Shown piece by piece: positions 5,986 to 26,765 of a stretch of 64,000 bases of DNA (positions are counted from its first letter, which is position 1; every line of letters starts with the position of its first letter). The notes under the pieces were generated by a model. It was not told the DNA's origin. It saw only the letters and a program-made list of their open reading frames with translations, and did not search any database. Source of the DNA: an uncultured Gammaproteobacteria bacterium (lineage in GTDB: Bacteria > Pseudomonadota > Gammaproteobacteria > Pseudomonadales > Pseudohongiellaceae); NCBI GenBank assembly GCA_913060495.1, contig CAJXRP010000008.1, positions 62,001 to 126,000 of the forward strand, given 5' to 3'. A program made the translations under genes and the position numbers.

Positions 5986-6528
5986 ATGTCTCAATTTGTT
6001 AATCGACTAACTCGGCTTACGCTGGCTGCGCTTTTAGCGGCCGTCGCGCTGGGAAGTCAATTTGCTGCCGCATTGGAAGTGGGCGATAAAGCGCCTGATT
6101 TCTCACTGCAGGCATCGGATGGCCAGACCTACAGCATGTCCCAGTTCTTGGGCGAGAAGCCTGTAGTAATAGCCTTTTTTCCTAAAGCCTTTACCGGCGG
6201 ATGAACTATGCAATGCAAAGCGCTGCGTGACAGTGCTAGAGAAATTGAAAGTTTTGACGTTGCTTACTTCATGGCTAGTGTTGACACCCTAGAAGACAAT
6301 ACCGCCTTCGCTGAAGAGCATGCGGCTGGTTTTCCAATCCTTGCAGATCCTGAGAAGGAGATGACAAGTGATTACGGTGTGTTAATGGGAGCTGGTTTCG
6401 CTAATCGTTGGACCTATTACATTGGTGCCGACGGAACTATCTTAAAGATAGACAAAGAGACCAAGCCAGCAACGGCAGGCAAGGACTTAACCCGCACGAT
6501 GGAAGAGTTGGGTTTTCCTAAAGTATAA
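5986..6528 (+). CDS. Periplasmic selenocysteine peroxiredoxin (in-frame UGA at codon 73)
   Basis: A 180-residue AhpC/TSA-family peroxiredoxin read through an in-frame TGA at 6202-6204. The start is ATG 5986, with GGAGG at 5976-5980, five bases upstream. Residues 1-28 are a signal peptide, so it acts outside the cytoplasm. The mature domain has KAPDFSLQASDGQTYSMSQF, then FFPKAFTGG-Sec-TMQCKALRDSA. The UGA falls exactly where the peroxidatic cysteine is expected, and a cysteine four residues later may resolve the selenenic acid. Both halves (before and after the UGA) align with one peroxiredoxin, including the C-terminal part VLMGAGFANRWTYYIGADGTILKID. A SECIS-like hairpin follows the UGA. It would reduce peroxides with a Sec nucleophile. 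A strong terminator follows at 6563. Pseudogene or sequencing error is much less likely. Confidence 0.88.
6219..6237 (+). promoter_or_regulatory. SECIS element for UGA decoding in the peroxiredoxin
   Basis: Six pairs join 6219-6224 to 6232-6237 (one G-U), extended by a G-C pair (6225/6231) that closes a CGUGA loop at 6226-6230. The loop begins 21 nt after the UGA and has G in its second position followed by U. This fits the published bacterial SECIS pattern of a small G-containing apical loop 16-37 nt downstream of UGA, recognised by SelB. Confidence 0.72.
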
Positions 6529-22558: not shown

Positions 22559-23836
22559 ATGAACAGACGCGAATTTACAAAATTTTTGGGTATGGCGGGT
22601 TTGAGCGCGACTGCTGCTTTGCCACTGGGTATTGCGCAGGCTGCCGAATCTTACAGCGGGCCCTTCTACATAAACCTTGCGGCGATCGGTGGTTGGGATG
22701 TGACTAGCTTCTGTGACCCGAAAGCGAATATTGCTGGCGAGCGCACGATCAACAACTGGGCAGACTCCGCTAGCATAGGGCAGATCGGTAATATTGCCTA
22801 CGCGCCAGTCGCTAACAATCAGACATTCTTTGAGCGCTTTTATCAAGACATGATGGTGATCAATGGTATCGATACTCAAACCAATTCTCACGATGACGGA
22901 AGGCGGCACACCTGGAGTGGTCGTCTAGGTTTTGGCTATCCCAGTTTCGGTGCCATTGCCTCAAACGCAATCGGACCCGAGTTGCCGTTGTCCTTGGTGC
23001 ACGCGGCTGGCTACAACGAGACCGCAGGTATTGCGCGCTTCAGTCGTCTGCAAGACCCTGATGTAATTCGCAATCTTGTTAACGATTCTGTGGTGCAGGA
23101 TGGTGACACAAGCTACGGGCTTTTCGAAGACAATGAGTTAAATCTGATTAGCCAGTATCAAAATTCTCGCTTGTCCCGACTGCAGAGCAGCAACCAGCTC
23201 TTGCCGCGACAGATCGATGGCATGAATTCTTTGCAGCTAGCAAACGCAACGCGAGACGACCTGAAACTGTTCGCCGATCTATTGCCTACTTCCTTCGAAG
23301 GAGGGCGTACTAACAGAGCCGCTCAACTCGCTCTGATTGCCTATCAGTCAGGGCTTTGTGTTTCCTGTCAATTAGGTCTCAGCGGATTCGACACTCATCA
23401 GGATCACGATGATGATCACTTCAGTTCTATGGCCGAGCTAACCGACCTGGTTACCTACATATTCGACTATGCGGAGGCGGCCGGCTTTGCTGATAAAATC
23501 GTGATTACTCTAGGCTCAGATTTTGGTCGCAAGCCCTACTACAATTCAGGCGGAGGAAAGGATCACTGGCCCATCGGCAGTGCCATGTTTATTCAGCAGG
23601 GCGCGGCGTGGGGCAACAGAGTGGTTGGTGCAACGGATGATCTGCACAATGCCTTGAAGATTAATCCGAGCACGCTACAGGTCGATAGTTCGAGTGCTGG
23701 TGTTGGCCTCGAGCCGAAGCACTTGCAGCAGGCGATACGTGAACTTGCGGGTGTTGATCAGAGTGCAGCCGCTCTGCAGTTTCCTCTTGATGCCGAAGAC
23801 ATAGATTTCTTCAGTCCGTCGAAGCAAACTGCATAG
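22559..23836 (+). CDS. Tat-exported DUF1501-family protein
   Basis: A 425-residue protein with a Tat signal (NRREFTKFLGMAGLSATAAL, cleavage near AQAAE). The mature part has the alkaline-phosphatase-like layout of DUF1501: YINLAAIGGWD at the start, MMVINGIDTQTNSHDDGRR near 100, GLSGFDTHQDHDDDH near 280, and VITLGSDFGRKPYYNSGGGKDHWPIGS near 320. The Asp/His clusters are suitable for metal binding. Family members are secreted, with unproven sulfatase- or phosphatase-like activity. It follows the CxxCH protein and precedes a selenoprotein by 73 nt, forming part of a secreted redox block. Tat export implies folding with a cofactor or metal in the cytoplasm. Confidence 0.78.
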   Translation: MNRREFTKFLGMAGLSATAALPLGIAQAAESYSGPFYINLAAIGGWDVTSFCDPKANIAGERTINNWADSASIGQIGNIAYAPVANNQTFFERFYQDMMVINGIDTQTNSHDDGRRHTWSGRLGFGYPSFGAIASNAIGPELPLSLVHAAGYNETAGIARFSRLQDPDVIRNLVNDSVVQDGDTSYGLFEDNELNLISQYQNSRLSRLQSSNQLLPRQIDGMNSLQLANATRDDLKLFADLLPTSFEGGRTNRAAQLALIAYQSGLCVSCQLGLSGFDTHQDHDDDHFSSMAELTDLVTYIFDYAEAAGFADKIVITLGSDFGRKPYYNSGGGKDHWPIGSAMFIQQGAAWGNRVVGATDDLHNALKINPSTLQVDSSSAGVGLEPKHLQQAIRELAGVDQSAAALQFPLDAEDIDFFSPSKQTA

Positions 23837-23909
23837 ACGCGTCTGGGTTATTGCTCAAGCCCTAGACTGTGTTAAGTTAGAGTTTGATTAAGCGACAGGC
23901 AAGTACTCC

Positions 23910-24398
23910 ATGAACAAATTAAATCCTGGCGATATTTTTCCGGACATGCGGCTGCAACTCGTGGGCGGTGGCTCGCTGTCTCTTCCCGGCGATATAACTT
24001 CTCCTATGACGGTGGTGTTGTTTTTCCGTGGACATTGGTGACCTTACTGCCGCCGGCTCTTAGCTGGCTTTGAAGAGCGCCGTGCAGCGTTCGAAGAGCA
24101 AGGGGTTTCCATCATTGCGGGTAGCGTCGATCCTGAAGAGAAGCTGATTGATATAGCCGCTGGACTGGGCTATCCACTTGCTTACGGAATGACTCGAGAC
24201 GACGGCGATTCTATCGGTGCTTGGTGGGAGGAGCGAAGGGATCACATTCAGCCCTCAGAGTTTGTCCTCACAAATAGCGGCAAAGTGATGTTTGATACCT
24301 ACAGTAATTCCCCTGTTGGAAGAATGGATCCGGAAGAGACGCTGACGCTTATCAAGTACCTAAATCAACTGCGCGCCAAGGCCAATGCAGCTAGCTAG
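23910..24398 (+). CDS. Peroxiredoxin-like selenoprotein with UxxC motif (in-frame UGA at codon 44)
   Basis: A 162-residue thioredoxin-fold protein read from ATG 23910 through TGA 24039-24041. The first 43 codons (DIFPDMRLQLVGGG, TVVLFFRGHW) and the rest (PYCRRLLAGFEERRAAFEEQGVSIIAGSVD, then FVLTNSGKVMFDTYSNSPVGRM) form one AhpC/TSA-like protein whose active site reads HW-Sec-PYC. Cysteine homologues have HWCPYC, so Sec replaces the attacking Cys and leaves a UxxC redox pair. No signal peptide is present, so it is cytoplasmic. A candidate SECIS follows the UGA. A thiol-disulfide or peroxide reductase role is inferred. Taken as separate halves the frame would appear as a small orphan protein starting at 24189, which has no plausible fold. 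Confidence 0.88.
24056..24078 (+). promoter_or_regulatory. SECIS element for UGA decoding in the peroxiredoxin-like gene
   Basis: GCTCTT (24056-24061) pairs perfectly with AAGAGC (24073-24078), leaving an 11-nt loop with G in the second position and an internal GG. The loop starts 20 nt after the UGA, almost the same spacing as in the other selenoprotein gene (21 nt). A competing hairpin (24052-24057 with 24063-24068) has no G in its loop and fits the SelB pattern less well. Confidence 0.58.
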
Positions 24399-24507
24399 GC
24401 TGTGCTAGACTGTGCGGCATCTATTTGGTCCATGGCATCGACTCCGGAGCGGGTTTTTGCCAGGTTAGCTCGGCCAAAACTGTAGGCATATTTTGGGGGG
24501 AACAGCA

Positions 24508-25089
24508 GTGACTAATACACAACTTACTAGGCGTGCATTCTTGAGCTCAGCCAGTAGTGCGGCTAAAAGTTCAATCATCGTACTCAGCCTTCCGGCAATT
24601 CTCGTTTCCTGCGAGAGGTCGAAACAAGCGATTCTAAACAATGAAGAATTTTCTTTGCTTACTGAAGAAGAGGCGCAGGAATTCAATGCGATAGCCGCGC
24701 GGATAATTCCTACCGATGAGACGCCAGGTGCAACCGAGGCCGGCGTCATTTATTTTATCGACAATGTGCTCAGTGACAACAGAGAGGAAGAGCATGAAAC
24801 GCTTCGTCTGGGCCTTAGGGAATTGCAGATTGCGGCGGCTCTAAATTTTAATGCTTCCTATTTTCATGAACTGGAACCCGAGCAACAAGATCAGTTATTA
24901 ACAGAGGCCGAAGACACGCCATTTTTCGGCACTATTCGTTTTTTAACAATTGCAGGCATGTTCTCGCTACCCGAGTACGGTGGAAATCGCGACAAGATTG
25001 GCTATGAACTTATCGGATTCGAAGATCGTCATGCCTGGCAGCCTCCCTATGGCTCCTATGATGCTGACTATGCCGAGAGGGGGGAATAG
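24508..25089 (+). CDS. Gluconate 2-dehydrogenase subunit 3-like protein (Tat, lipoprotein)
   Basis: A 193-residue protein, best started at GTG 24508 behind the G-run at 24495-24500. It has a twin-arginine signal (LTRRAFLSSASS) that ends in a lipobox (ILVSC), so it is Tat-exported and probably lipid-anchored. The mature domain has the subunit-3 pattern LLTEEEAQEFNAIAARIIPTDETPGATEAGVIYFID and a C-terminal segment MFSLPEYGGNRDKIGYELIGF. In known enzymes the small subunit carries the Tat signal and takes the folded flavoprotein subunit through the membrane. The GMC gene starts 2 nt after its stop, as expected of that pair. Confidence 0.85.
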   Translation: MTNTQLTRRAFLSSASSAAKSSIIVLSLPAILVSCERSKQAILNNEEFSLLTEEEAQEFNAIAARIIPTDETPGATEAGVIYFIDNVLSDNREEEHETLRLGLRELQIAAALNFNASYFHELEPEQQDQLLTEAEDTPFFGTIRFLTIAGMFSLPEYGGNRDKIGYELIGFEDRHAWQPPYGSYDADYAERGE

Positions 25090-25091
25090 AC

Positions 25092-26765
25092 ATGGCTGAA
25101 GAAAATACTCAACCAAGCTACCCGACTCGCGAAGAAGTAGACTTTGTCATTGTTGGCTCCGGTGCTGCCGGAGGTGTCATGGCCAAGGAGCTCTCAACTG
25201 CTGGATTTTCAGTCGTTGTTTTGGAGCAGGGGCCGCATCTGCAAGCCGCCGATTTCAAGCACGACGAATGGGGCTACGATGTAAATAAGGATCTCACTTG
25301 GGGAGCGCGACAAGGTTATCCTCAGACATTTAGGAAGTCGGTAAATGATGAGGTCGAGCTGCGGGAGAGTGTGCTCGACTATGCACATAACGTTGGTGGA
25401 AGTAGCGTGCATTTCTCCGGTAACTTCTGGCGTTTTAGGCCTATCGATTTTATAGAGGCGAGTGTTCGCGGTCCTATAGCCGGAACGAACTTTGCGGATT
25501 GGCCCATCACTTATGATGACCTTGAGCCCTATTACACAAAAGTAGATTGGGAAGTAGGTGTGTCGGGACTGGCAGGTCCATGGGATCCGCCTCGGTCTCG
25601 GGAATACCCTTGTCCGCCTATGCCGGTGAAGTCCTCCGATGTCTTATTAGAGCGTGCCGCGAAACAAATGGGCCTTACGCCGTATCCGGCTCCGGTAGCA
25701 ATTCTTTCGCAGCCGCATAACGGTCGTCCTGGTTGCATCCATTGTGGTTTCTGTAACGGCTACGGCTGTGAGGTCAATGCGAAGTCTTCATCTATGGCCT
25801 CGATGATTCCGCTGGCTCTTGCTTCAGGCAATTGTGAGTTGCGTACTGGCTGCACTGTATCGCGAGTGAATACTGATGAGGGTGGTCGCGCCAACGAAGT
25901 AGTCTATTGGAAAGAAGATGGCACCGAGCAGGCACAGTTGGCGAAGGCCGTTGTGCTGTGCGCAAATGGAGCGGAGACGCCACGTCTGCTGTTGGCATCT
26001 GAGTCCGAACAGCATCCAAATGGCTTGGCAAATTCAAGTGGCGTCGTAGGCACAAACTTGATGTTCAATGGTTACTCTACAGCTGTCGGTCTATTCGACG
26101 AGCCGGTTAATGCCCATAAGAGTGTGCCGGCAACACGAGTCTTGCATGACTTCTATGAGCTCGACCCCAGCCTCGGTTTCTATGGCGGCGGTGGTATCGA
26201 TGCGCGGCACTTCAGTGCTGGCCGACCTATGAATATGGCCCTAGCGGGGGGTCTTATAGGAGACGGTCCCACTTGGGGTAGCGAGTACAAGAAAAACCTT
26301 CAGAAAGAGTTTACCCATACAGCTGCATTCGACGGACATACCACGTCATTGCCATTGGCTACTAACACGGTAACTCTGGATCCGGATGTGTTGGACAAGT
26401 GGGGTCGTAAGGCGATGCGCACTACCTACACGGATCATCCGGATGACATCTCTACGATGAAATTTTTCTACGACAAGACCATGGAATTATTGGATGTCGC
26501 AGGCGCTACAAAGTCTGTTGGTTTCTACGCCGAGGATGGTCAGGATGGAAACGTACATCTTTTAGGCACCTGTCGCATGGGTAACGATCCAACTACTTCT
26601 GTCGTCGACAAGTTCAATAGATCCCACGATGTGGAGAATCTTTTTATGGTCGATGGTAGCTCGCTGGTGACGTCCGGTCGCGGACAACCTACCATGACTA
26701 TTATGGCCTTGGCTTTTCGCGCAGCGGACAACATTATTCAGTTTGCACGAAGGGGTGAGATCTAA
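25092..26765 (+). CDS. GMC-family FAD dehydrogenase, gluconate 2-dehydrogenase large-subunit type
   Basis: A 557-residue flavoprotein. FAD-binding DFVIVGSGAAGGVMAKEL lies at about 17-34, with VVLEQG after it, and VGGSSVHFSGNFWR near 105 is the second FAD motif. The GMC C-terminal domain has LLGTCRMGNDP (about 490) and MVDGSSLVTSGRGQPTMTIM. Residues about 218-229 hold CIHCGFCNGYGC, the cysteine cluster that in bacterial FAD glucose dehydrogenase binds a 3Fe-4S centre. It has no signal of its own and should be carried through Tat by the upstream subunit. It oxidises a sugar, sugar acid or polyol in the periplasm. The usual third, multi-heme c subunit is not adjacent; the CxxCH protein at 19728 is a possible acceptor. 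Confidence 0.88.
   Translation: MAEENTQPSYPTREEVDFVIVGSGAAGGVMAKELSTAGFSVVVLEQGPHLQAADFKHDEWGYDVNKDLTWGARQGYPQTFRKSVNDEVELRESVLDYAHNVGGSSVHFSGNFWRFRPIDFIEASVRGPIAGTNFADWPITYDDLEPYYTKVDWEVGVSGLAGPWDPPRSREYPCPPMPVKSSDVLLERAAKQMGLTPYPAPVAILSQPHNGRPGCIHCGFCNGYGCEVNAKSSSMASMIPLALASGNCELRTGCTVSRVNTDEGGRANEVVYWKEDGTEQAQLAKAVVLCANGAETPRLLLASESEQHPNGLANSSGVVGTNLMFNGYSTAVGLFDEPVNAHKSVPATRVLHDFYELDPSLGFYGGGGIDARHFSAGRPMNMALAGGLIGDGPTWGSEYKKNLQKEFTHTAAFDGHTTSLPLATNTVTLDPDVLDKWGRKAMRTTYTDHPDDISTMKFFYDKTMELLDVAGATKSVGFYAEDGQDGNVHLLGTCRMGNDPTTSVVDKFNRSHDVENLFMVDGSSLVTSGRGQPTMTIMALAFRAADNIIQFARRGEI

Follow-up and report, generated by a model that had tools for sequence, protein, structure and literature searches.

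Peroxiredoxin (Prx)-like selenoproteins with a UxxC motif, classed in PF00578 or its COG, are described from the Sargasso Sea (PMC1088965) and from bacterial genomes (PMC1794560). Table 2 of PMC2398784 enters 225 GOS sequences under 'Prx-like 1', and a UxxC Prx-like selenoprotein is again listed in a table of a 2026 review (PMC13188914). The same review gives a consensus for the bacterial SECIS (bSECIS) in which 16-37 nt separate the UGA from the hairpin loop, with exceptions noted. bSECISearch missed at least 40 known selenoprotein genes (13.0%) in the genomes examined in PMC12013277, and some bacterial selenoprotein genes escape detection because the SECIS rules fail for them. Among titles and abstracts, which leave subscription papers mostly outside and give no proof of absence, we recognised no bacterial SECIS that is displaced behind a second conserved hairpin.

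The gene at 23910-24398 (+) of the window, by which we mean the whole 64,000-nucleotide stretch of DNA that was analysed, shares its Pfam family, its motif and the existence of Cys homologues with Prx-like 1, and it differs in the 39 nt that separate its UGA from the predicted recoding hairpin. Since UxxC Prx-like selenoproteins are already published, the protein itself belongs to a known kind, and we provisionally assign it to 'Prx-like, PF00578, UxxC' by family, motif and Cys homologues rather than by alignment with published members. The putative signal, called hairpin 2 below, has the published bSECIS shape (loop of 3-9 nt, stem of 4-16 bp and a G among the first two bases of the loop): its loop is CGUGCA, with G second and then U, its stem has 6 bp, and it lies in-frame 3' of the UGA. 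It departs from the consensus in its distance (39 rather than 16-37 nt) and in its place behind a second conserved hairpin. The published energy is -7.5 kcal/mol or lower; the 18 nt of hairpin 2 alone give -6.9 kcal/mol, and the 60 nt that hold both hairpins give -19.5 kcal/mol.

A closer comparison is available within the window. An earlier note, made from the sequence alone, had called the gene the second selenoprotein of this DNA, and that description stands. The other one, which we take to be that reader's first, is a TGGU peroxiredoxin of the TxxU type (5986-6528, +) with its TGA at 6202, a signal peptide for export judged by eye, and a SECIS-like hairpin at 6219-6237 with the loop CGUGA. 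The two proteins belong to the same Pfam family and their predicted signals have the same CGUG loop. They differ in that Sec is fourth in the motif of the TxxU protein and first in the UxxC protein, an offset of three residues, and in the signal peptide and the 21-nt distance from UGA to loop that the former has. Cys versions of the TxxU peroxiredoxin occur in related genomes (L167, L168 and L169). The profile of the SelL-related redox protein NF040769 matches residues 27-78 of the UxxC protein weakly, scoring 18 bits where its cut-off is 120.

The reading frame and its product

Translation from ATG 23910 to TAG 24398 gives 162 residues with a single in-frame TGA (24039-24041) at residue 44, in the motif GHW-U-PYC that ends at C47, exactly as the earlier note had described it. 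That note also expected a gene caller working without recoding to report only the C-terminal 69 codons; in agreement with this, the frames callable on this strand are one of 43 residues (23910-24041) and one of 69 residues (24189-24398). Comparison of the full protein with Prx-like families, which had been proposed as a check, gives an AhpC-TSA domain match (PF00578) at 54.5 bits, above the Pfam cut-off of 26 (E = 1.4e-14 for the 162-residue product). Eleven NCBIfam models are listed for the product, and all of them score below their own cut-offs. The N-terminus, MNKLNPGDIFPDM, has no signal peptide that can be seen by eye, and on this judgement the UxxC selenoprotein probably sits in the cytoplasm, as had been suggested for it as a peroxiredoxin-like protein.

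Relatives and the Sec/Cys exchange

A genome-contig collection yielded 113 confirmed relatives, 80 of which were kept for codon counts. The codon aligned with U44, first in UxxC, is TGA in 29 of these and TGY (TGT or TGC, Cys) in the remaining 51, with no other codon found, and C47 is present in all 80. The TGA loci match across at least 148 residues at 42-90% identity; the Cys loci match at 23-44% identity, mostly over partial lengths. In each of 11 aligned Cys relatives (26-34% identity), CPxC aligns on UPYC. Homologues with Cys at the TGA position had been anticipated and exist, and the suggested comparison with related genomes recovered them at 23-44% identity; no high-identity Cys orthologue was found. 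The family thus has Cys homologues, but its close orthologues were seen in the Sec form alone.

The protein has a match at E <=0.001 in 35 of 58 related genomes, its own included. Thirteen of them (again with its own), all of the window's genus, match at E <1e-60 with a TGA inside the match in every case, and in two of these (G004 and G028) a TAA is also reported inside the match. A class-wide draw of 369 genomes, in which the window's genus is represented by the window's own genome alone, gave 37 genomes with matches at <=1e-12: the TGA is present in the window's own genome, and the other 36 are stop-free in all matches. The analysis of the RNA used 37 distinct sequences that align gap-free from the UGA onward: the window, L046-L074 and, once repeats of the same 120 bases had been removed, seven of L016-L028. 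All 37 have the TGA, and constraint on the protein persists past it, which is more than chance would give. The set labelled A2 omits loci from genomes of the window's genus as well as L054, which has an extra TAG near the C-terminus, a few codons ahead of the family's usual end.

The window's genome (3.6 Mb, 45 contigs) encodes what is required to make Sec. It holds one tRNA-Sec above the Rfam cut-off (66.9 bits), which ARAGORN also reports as tRNA-SeC with anticodon tca, together with genes for SelA (572 bits), SelB (387 bits) and SelD (286 bits). The lack of SelB or SelC, which had been named as grounds for abandoning the recoding, is thus not what the genome displays. Among the 13 genus genomes that carry the gene, a tRNA-Sec above cut-off is found in nine and is missing in four, and SelB at E <=1e-70 is found in 10 and is missing in three; at those cut-offs G016 (89% complete) and G019 (85% complete) have neither. 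The SelD match (L157, G000:C21:23878-24798) lies inside a 786-residue open frame, as expected of a fused SelD. The Sec/Cys exchange and the Sec machinery of the genome indicate that the selenoprotein call for TGA 24039 is right.

Fold and active site

An AlphaFold model built from a 29-sequence alignment has a pLDDT of 94.6 and is confident across the TGA, with the motif opening a helix at residues 45-56. Foldseek found 686 PDB matches at E 0.001, and the peroxiredoxins and redox proteins that make up the best 50 reach a query TM of 0.85; at the top among those listed are the peroxiredoxins 6q5v, 3hjp and 5ovq. A sequence search of the PDB gave one weak match, to 3c71 (ResA). When the window's two selenoproteins are aligned, U44 pairs with the TxxU protein's motif Thr and C47 with its Sec, so they place selenium at opposite ends of one four-residue motif. 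The canonical peroxiredoxin site (PxxxTxxC/U) is consequently not what is found here, as Sec44 occupies the Thr position.

By analogy with UxxC chemistry, Sec44, at the N-terminus of the helix, would most likely attack an oxidised substrate (a disulfide or a peroxide). Cys47, at the position of a peroxidatic Cys, would then resolve the intermediate as a selenenylsulfide, which could be reduced in turn by thioredoxin or a low-molecular-weight thiol. The same alignment can be read in the opposite sense, with the protein acting as a true peroxidase whose peroxidatic residue is Cys47 and whose Sec44 only resolves. The place of Cys47 on the peroxidatic residue and of Sec44 on the motif Thr agrees with that reading, as does the prevalence of peroxiredoxins as the best fold matches among those listed. 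Selenols are more strongly nucleophilic than thiols, which weighs against a resolving role for Sec44, and PMC1088965 sets UXXC beside the CXXC redox motif as its counterpart. We regard a true peroxidase as unlikely, and attack by Sec44 with resolution by Cys47 as the most likely chemistry.

Two conserved hairpins downstream of the UGA

The earlier note had pointed to a 6-bp hairpin with G in its loop that begins 20 nt past the TGA, and a SECIS near that place is not supported. The only 6-bp stem that we find there is GCUCUU/AAGAGC (24056-24078), which begins 14 nt past the TGA rather than 20, so that its match to the intended hairpin is uncertain. It is rejected as a SECIS: 67.1% of its cells are paired in orthologues compared with 66.5% in shuffles, and its stability is no better than that of shuffles (z = 0.27). 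Minimum-energy folding of the region is likewise no better than shuffles over 52 or 60 nt (z = 0.11 and -0.51), and Rfam gave no match.

The orthologue alignment instead shows two other hairpins, both on the forward strand. Hairpin 1 (24052-24068) is GCCGGCU-CUU-AGCUGGC and begins 10 nt past the UGA. Hairpin 2 (24075-24092) is GAGCGC-CGUGCA-GCGUUC, with its loop at 24081-24086. Jointly they are 88.1% paired in the 37 sequences, and their covariation score is reached by none of 500 shuffles. The sequences fall into 30 of a far type, the window included, and seven of a near type (L056, L062 and L070-L074). RNAalifold, with no structure supplied, draws both hairpins for the far type and hairpin 1 alone for the near type.

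Hairpin 1 is conserved as a stem with a variable loop. In the far type, 89.0% of its cells are paired and it covaries (0 of 500 shuffles as high), and in the window its stability has a z of -4.37 relative to shuffles. The stem is interrupted in L019, L063 and L067. Its loop base 24059 varies among the 30 far-type sequences (10 have A, 10 have G, seven have T and three have C), and the Leu codon that ends in this loop uses all six of its synonymous codons. In the window the loop contains no G, though its spacing from the UGA is within the published range. Since the loop has G in 10 of the 30, those 10 could use either hairpin. In the near type, 24059 is G in 7 of 7 sequences.

Hairpin 2 hardly varies in the far type. 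In the 30 far-type sequences its CGCCGTG and GCG bases are invariant and 97.2% of its cells are paired; five of its six pairs are kept in every sequence and the sixth fails in five. With so little variation in these sequences, its covariation does not exceed that of shuffles (69 of 500), and its support comes from codon invariance and the 97.2% pairing. Codon use was examined at 64 columns where 25 or more of the far-type sequences share one degenerate residue. Among the 46 columns with at least four synonymous codons, three are restricted to a single codon (CGC at 24078, CGT at 24081 and GCG at 24087), all of them in hairpin 2 and invariant in 30 of 30, and none is in hairpin 1; no such restriction occurs in the 18 columns of lower degeneracy. 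This pattern indicates that the constraint 3' of the UGA acts on the RNA. Near-type orthologues do not keep hairpin 2 (50% paired), and in L056 a different small hairpin, one without GUG, is possible at its place.

Loop sequence and spacing in other selenoprotein genes

Further selenoprotein genes of the clade share the GUG loop. Both strands of the window contain 201 TGAs that are preceded by 20 or more open codons and followed by 25 or more. Two of these TGAs, those of the two selenoprotein genes, have a GUG-loop hairpin of at least 6 bp after them; with each of the remaining 63 triplets in the loop there are at most five matches, 48 in total. The scan rules were fixed, as for the scan near the tRNA-Sec gene and the 17-gene scan below, after the hairpins had already been seen. 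The latter scan sought GUG loops alone in 17 other selenoprotein genes, of which 10 are loci of the longer UPYC relatives and seven are Prx genes. All 17 place the G of GUG 21-22 nt past the UGA, with the base of the stem at 14-16 nt. This count leaves out the TGA-bearing Prx-related loci L170, L171, L172, L178 and L184. Unrestricted folding of the Prx genes draws the CGUGA loop in 7 of 7.

The longer UPYC selenoproteins are found in the window's genus (L032 and L037-L045), with SADWUPYC and SFDWUPYC forms in open frames of ~200-450 codons. Their SECIS-like hairpin has compensated stems, GCAACUC/GAGUUGC or GCAGCUC/GAGCUGC. At E 0.001, the window's own genome yields no match to this longer form. 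Near the tRNA-Sec gene, a GUG-loop hairpin, AGCUGGCGUGGACCAGCU, follows the TGA of a short open frame (L156, position 18147), probably by chance.

In the UxxC gene, the G of GUG is at 40 nt and the stem base at 33 nt. The loop distance of 39 nt is a small excess over the published range and is far from the clade's own habit of 21-22 nt. Subtracting the 17 nt of hairpin 1 brings the two positions to 23 and 16 nt. On the strength of the CGUG loop in the clade's genes and of this corrected distance, which approximates 21-22 nt, we propose hairpin 2 as the SelB site and hairpin 1 as a spacer.

A proposed displaced recoding signal

The gene would accordingly encode a Prx-fold thiol/selenol oxidoreductase in which UGA 24039 is read as Sec by means of hairpin 2, hairpin 1 serves as spacer, and Sec44 attacks with resolution by Cys47. 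We consider this joint explanation probable. The frame, the Sec/Cys exchange, the Sec machinery and the downstream RNA constraint are its sequence-based parts, and from them we infer the roles of SelB and the hairpins. With the UGA in the ribosomal A site, SelB and its Sec-tRNA are predicted to bind hairpin 2 at its CGUG loop. Folded between the UGA and hairpin 2, hairpin 1 would absorb 17 nt and thereby hold the CGUG loop at ~23 nt, near the spacing of the clade's other selenoprotein genes. Several observations weigh against the explanation: the spacing beyond 37 nt, the -6.9 kcal/mol of hairpin 2 alone, its covariation at the level of shuffles and its sixth pair, the 10 far-type sequences with a G in the loop of hairpin 1, the genomes that carry the gene but show no tRNA-Sec or SelB at the cut-offs used, the lack of an Rfam match, the minimum-energy folds and the late choice of the scan rules.

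If SelB touched both hairpins, the two might instead constitute one composite SECIS, and the fact that both stems are largely kept in the far type is compatible with this. A composite element seems improbable given how unequally they are kept, with a variable loop and a sometimes interrupted stem in hairpin 1 and five of six pairs in 30 of 30 sequences in hairpin 2. Still more doubtful is a reading in which every orthologue uses hairpin 1 as its SECIS and hairpin 2 is kept for another reason, such as protein or codon preference. Hairpin 1 does begin 10 nt past the UGA and covary, and its loop G in all near-type and 10 other sequences fits the published model. Against it stand the far-type loop base (A/C/G/T = 10/3/10/7) with no G in the window's loop, the three interrupted stems, the confinement of single-codon columns to hairpin 2 and the recurrence of the GUG loop across other selenoprotein genes. 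An ordinary stop or nonsense mutation at TGA 24039, leaving a pseudogene or two small genes such as the 43- and 69-residue frames that a standard caller sees on this strand, has a negligible probability, as conservation already argues against it (TGA is kept in 37 of 37 distinct orthologues, dN/dS 3' of the TGA is 0.03-0.08 in four of eight close pairs with the remaining four saturated, and it is low on both sides where computable), and so do the absence of any further stop in the window's frame, the complete Sec machinery and the confident fold across the TGA.

With hairpin 2 as the preferred signal, the family offers a concrete case of an apparently displaced SECIS in which near and far versions of one gene can be compared. 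The measurement of distance by SelB on the mRNA becomes directly testable through silent codon changes.

History of the near and far types

In a protein tree of 34 rows, where 10 of 31 inner branches are well supported and a long branch leads to the Cys outgroup, the near-type L070-L074 lie apart from a supported 24-row group (100/99) in which every far-type row used is placed. The near-type L056 and L062 are inside this group, at an unresolved fork. The placement of L070-L074 suggests that near may be the older state and that a single move occurred within the 24-row group, though L056 and L062 may have reverted. A changed loop preference of SelB behind the switch is unsupported: in the genomes of L056 and L062 the Prx gene has the CGUGA loop 21 nt past its UGA, and a change of SelB preference is thus unnecessary.

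It is conceivable, though we are slightly more inclined to doubt than to accept it, that the signal shifted ~20 nt downstream as the family evolved: an old near hairpin with a GUU loop would have lost the identity of that loop and persisted as the spacer, and a new hairpin with the CGUG loop typical of the clade would have replaced it. If so, bacterial SelB would read a SECIS across an intervening hairpin that holds the through-space distance constant.

Gene neighborhood

The earlier note had linked the gene by position to a secreted redox block. The neighbors themselves are real: DUF1501 (22559-23836, +) upstream, Gluconate_2-dh3 (24493-25089, +) and a GMC oxidoreductase (25092-26765, +) downstream, and also DUF1588/PSCyt3. 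The association is not conserved. DUF1501 and Gluconate_2-dh3 are found by the gene in 4 of 29 contig-collection loci (L046, L047, L048 and L050), all close relatives, and in L050 Gluconate_2-dh3 is ~2 kb farther downstream; some locus flanks are short, so a missing neighbor does not amount to absence at every locus. L049, whose protein is 90% identical, has neither nearby. L053, L054 and L061 have just a weaker DUF1588-type relative (~45% identity) and L051 a DUF411 fragment. Ten neighbor proteins at eight other loci include aminotransferases, desaturases, an acyl-CoA dehydrogenase and a luciferase-like monooxygenase, and four have no family. We rejected the operon link as not conserved. The gene behaves as a single gene of mobile position, so its position tells little about its substrate.

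A promoter and terminator scan of 23700-24560 gave no promoter-like site and three terminator-like stems (0.5 expected), one of them directly 3' of the stop codon at 24399-24418.
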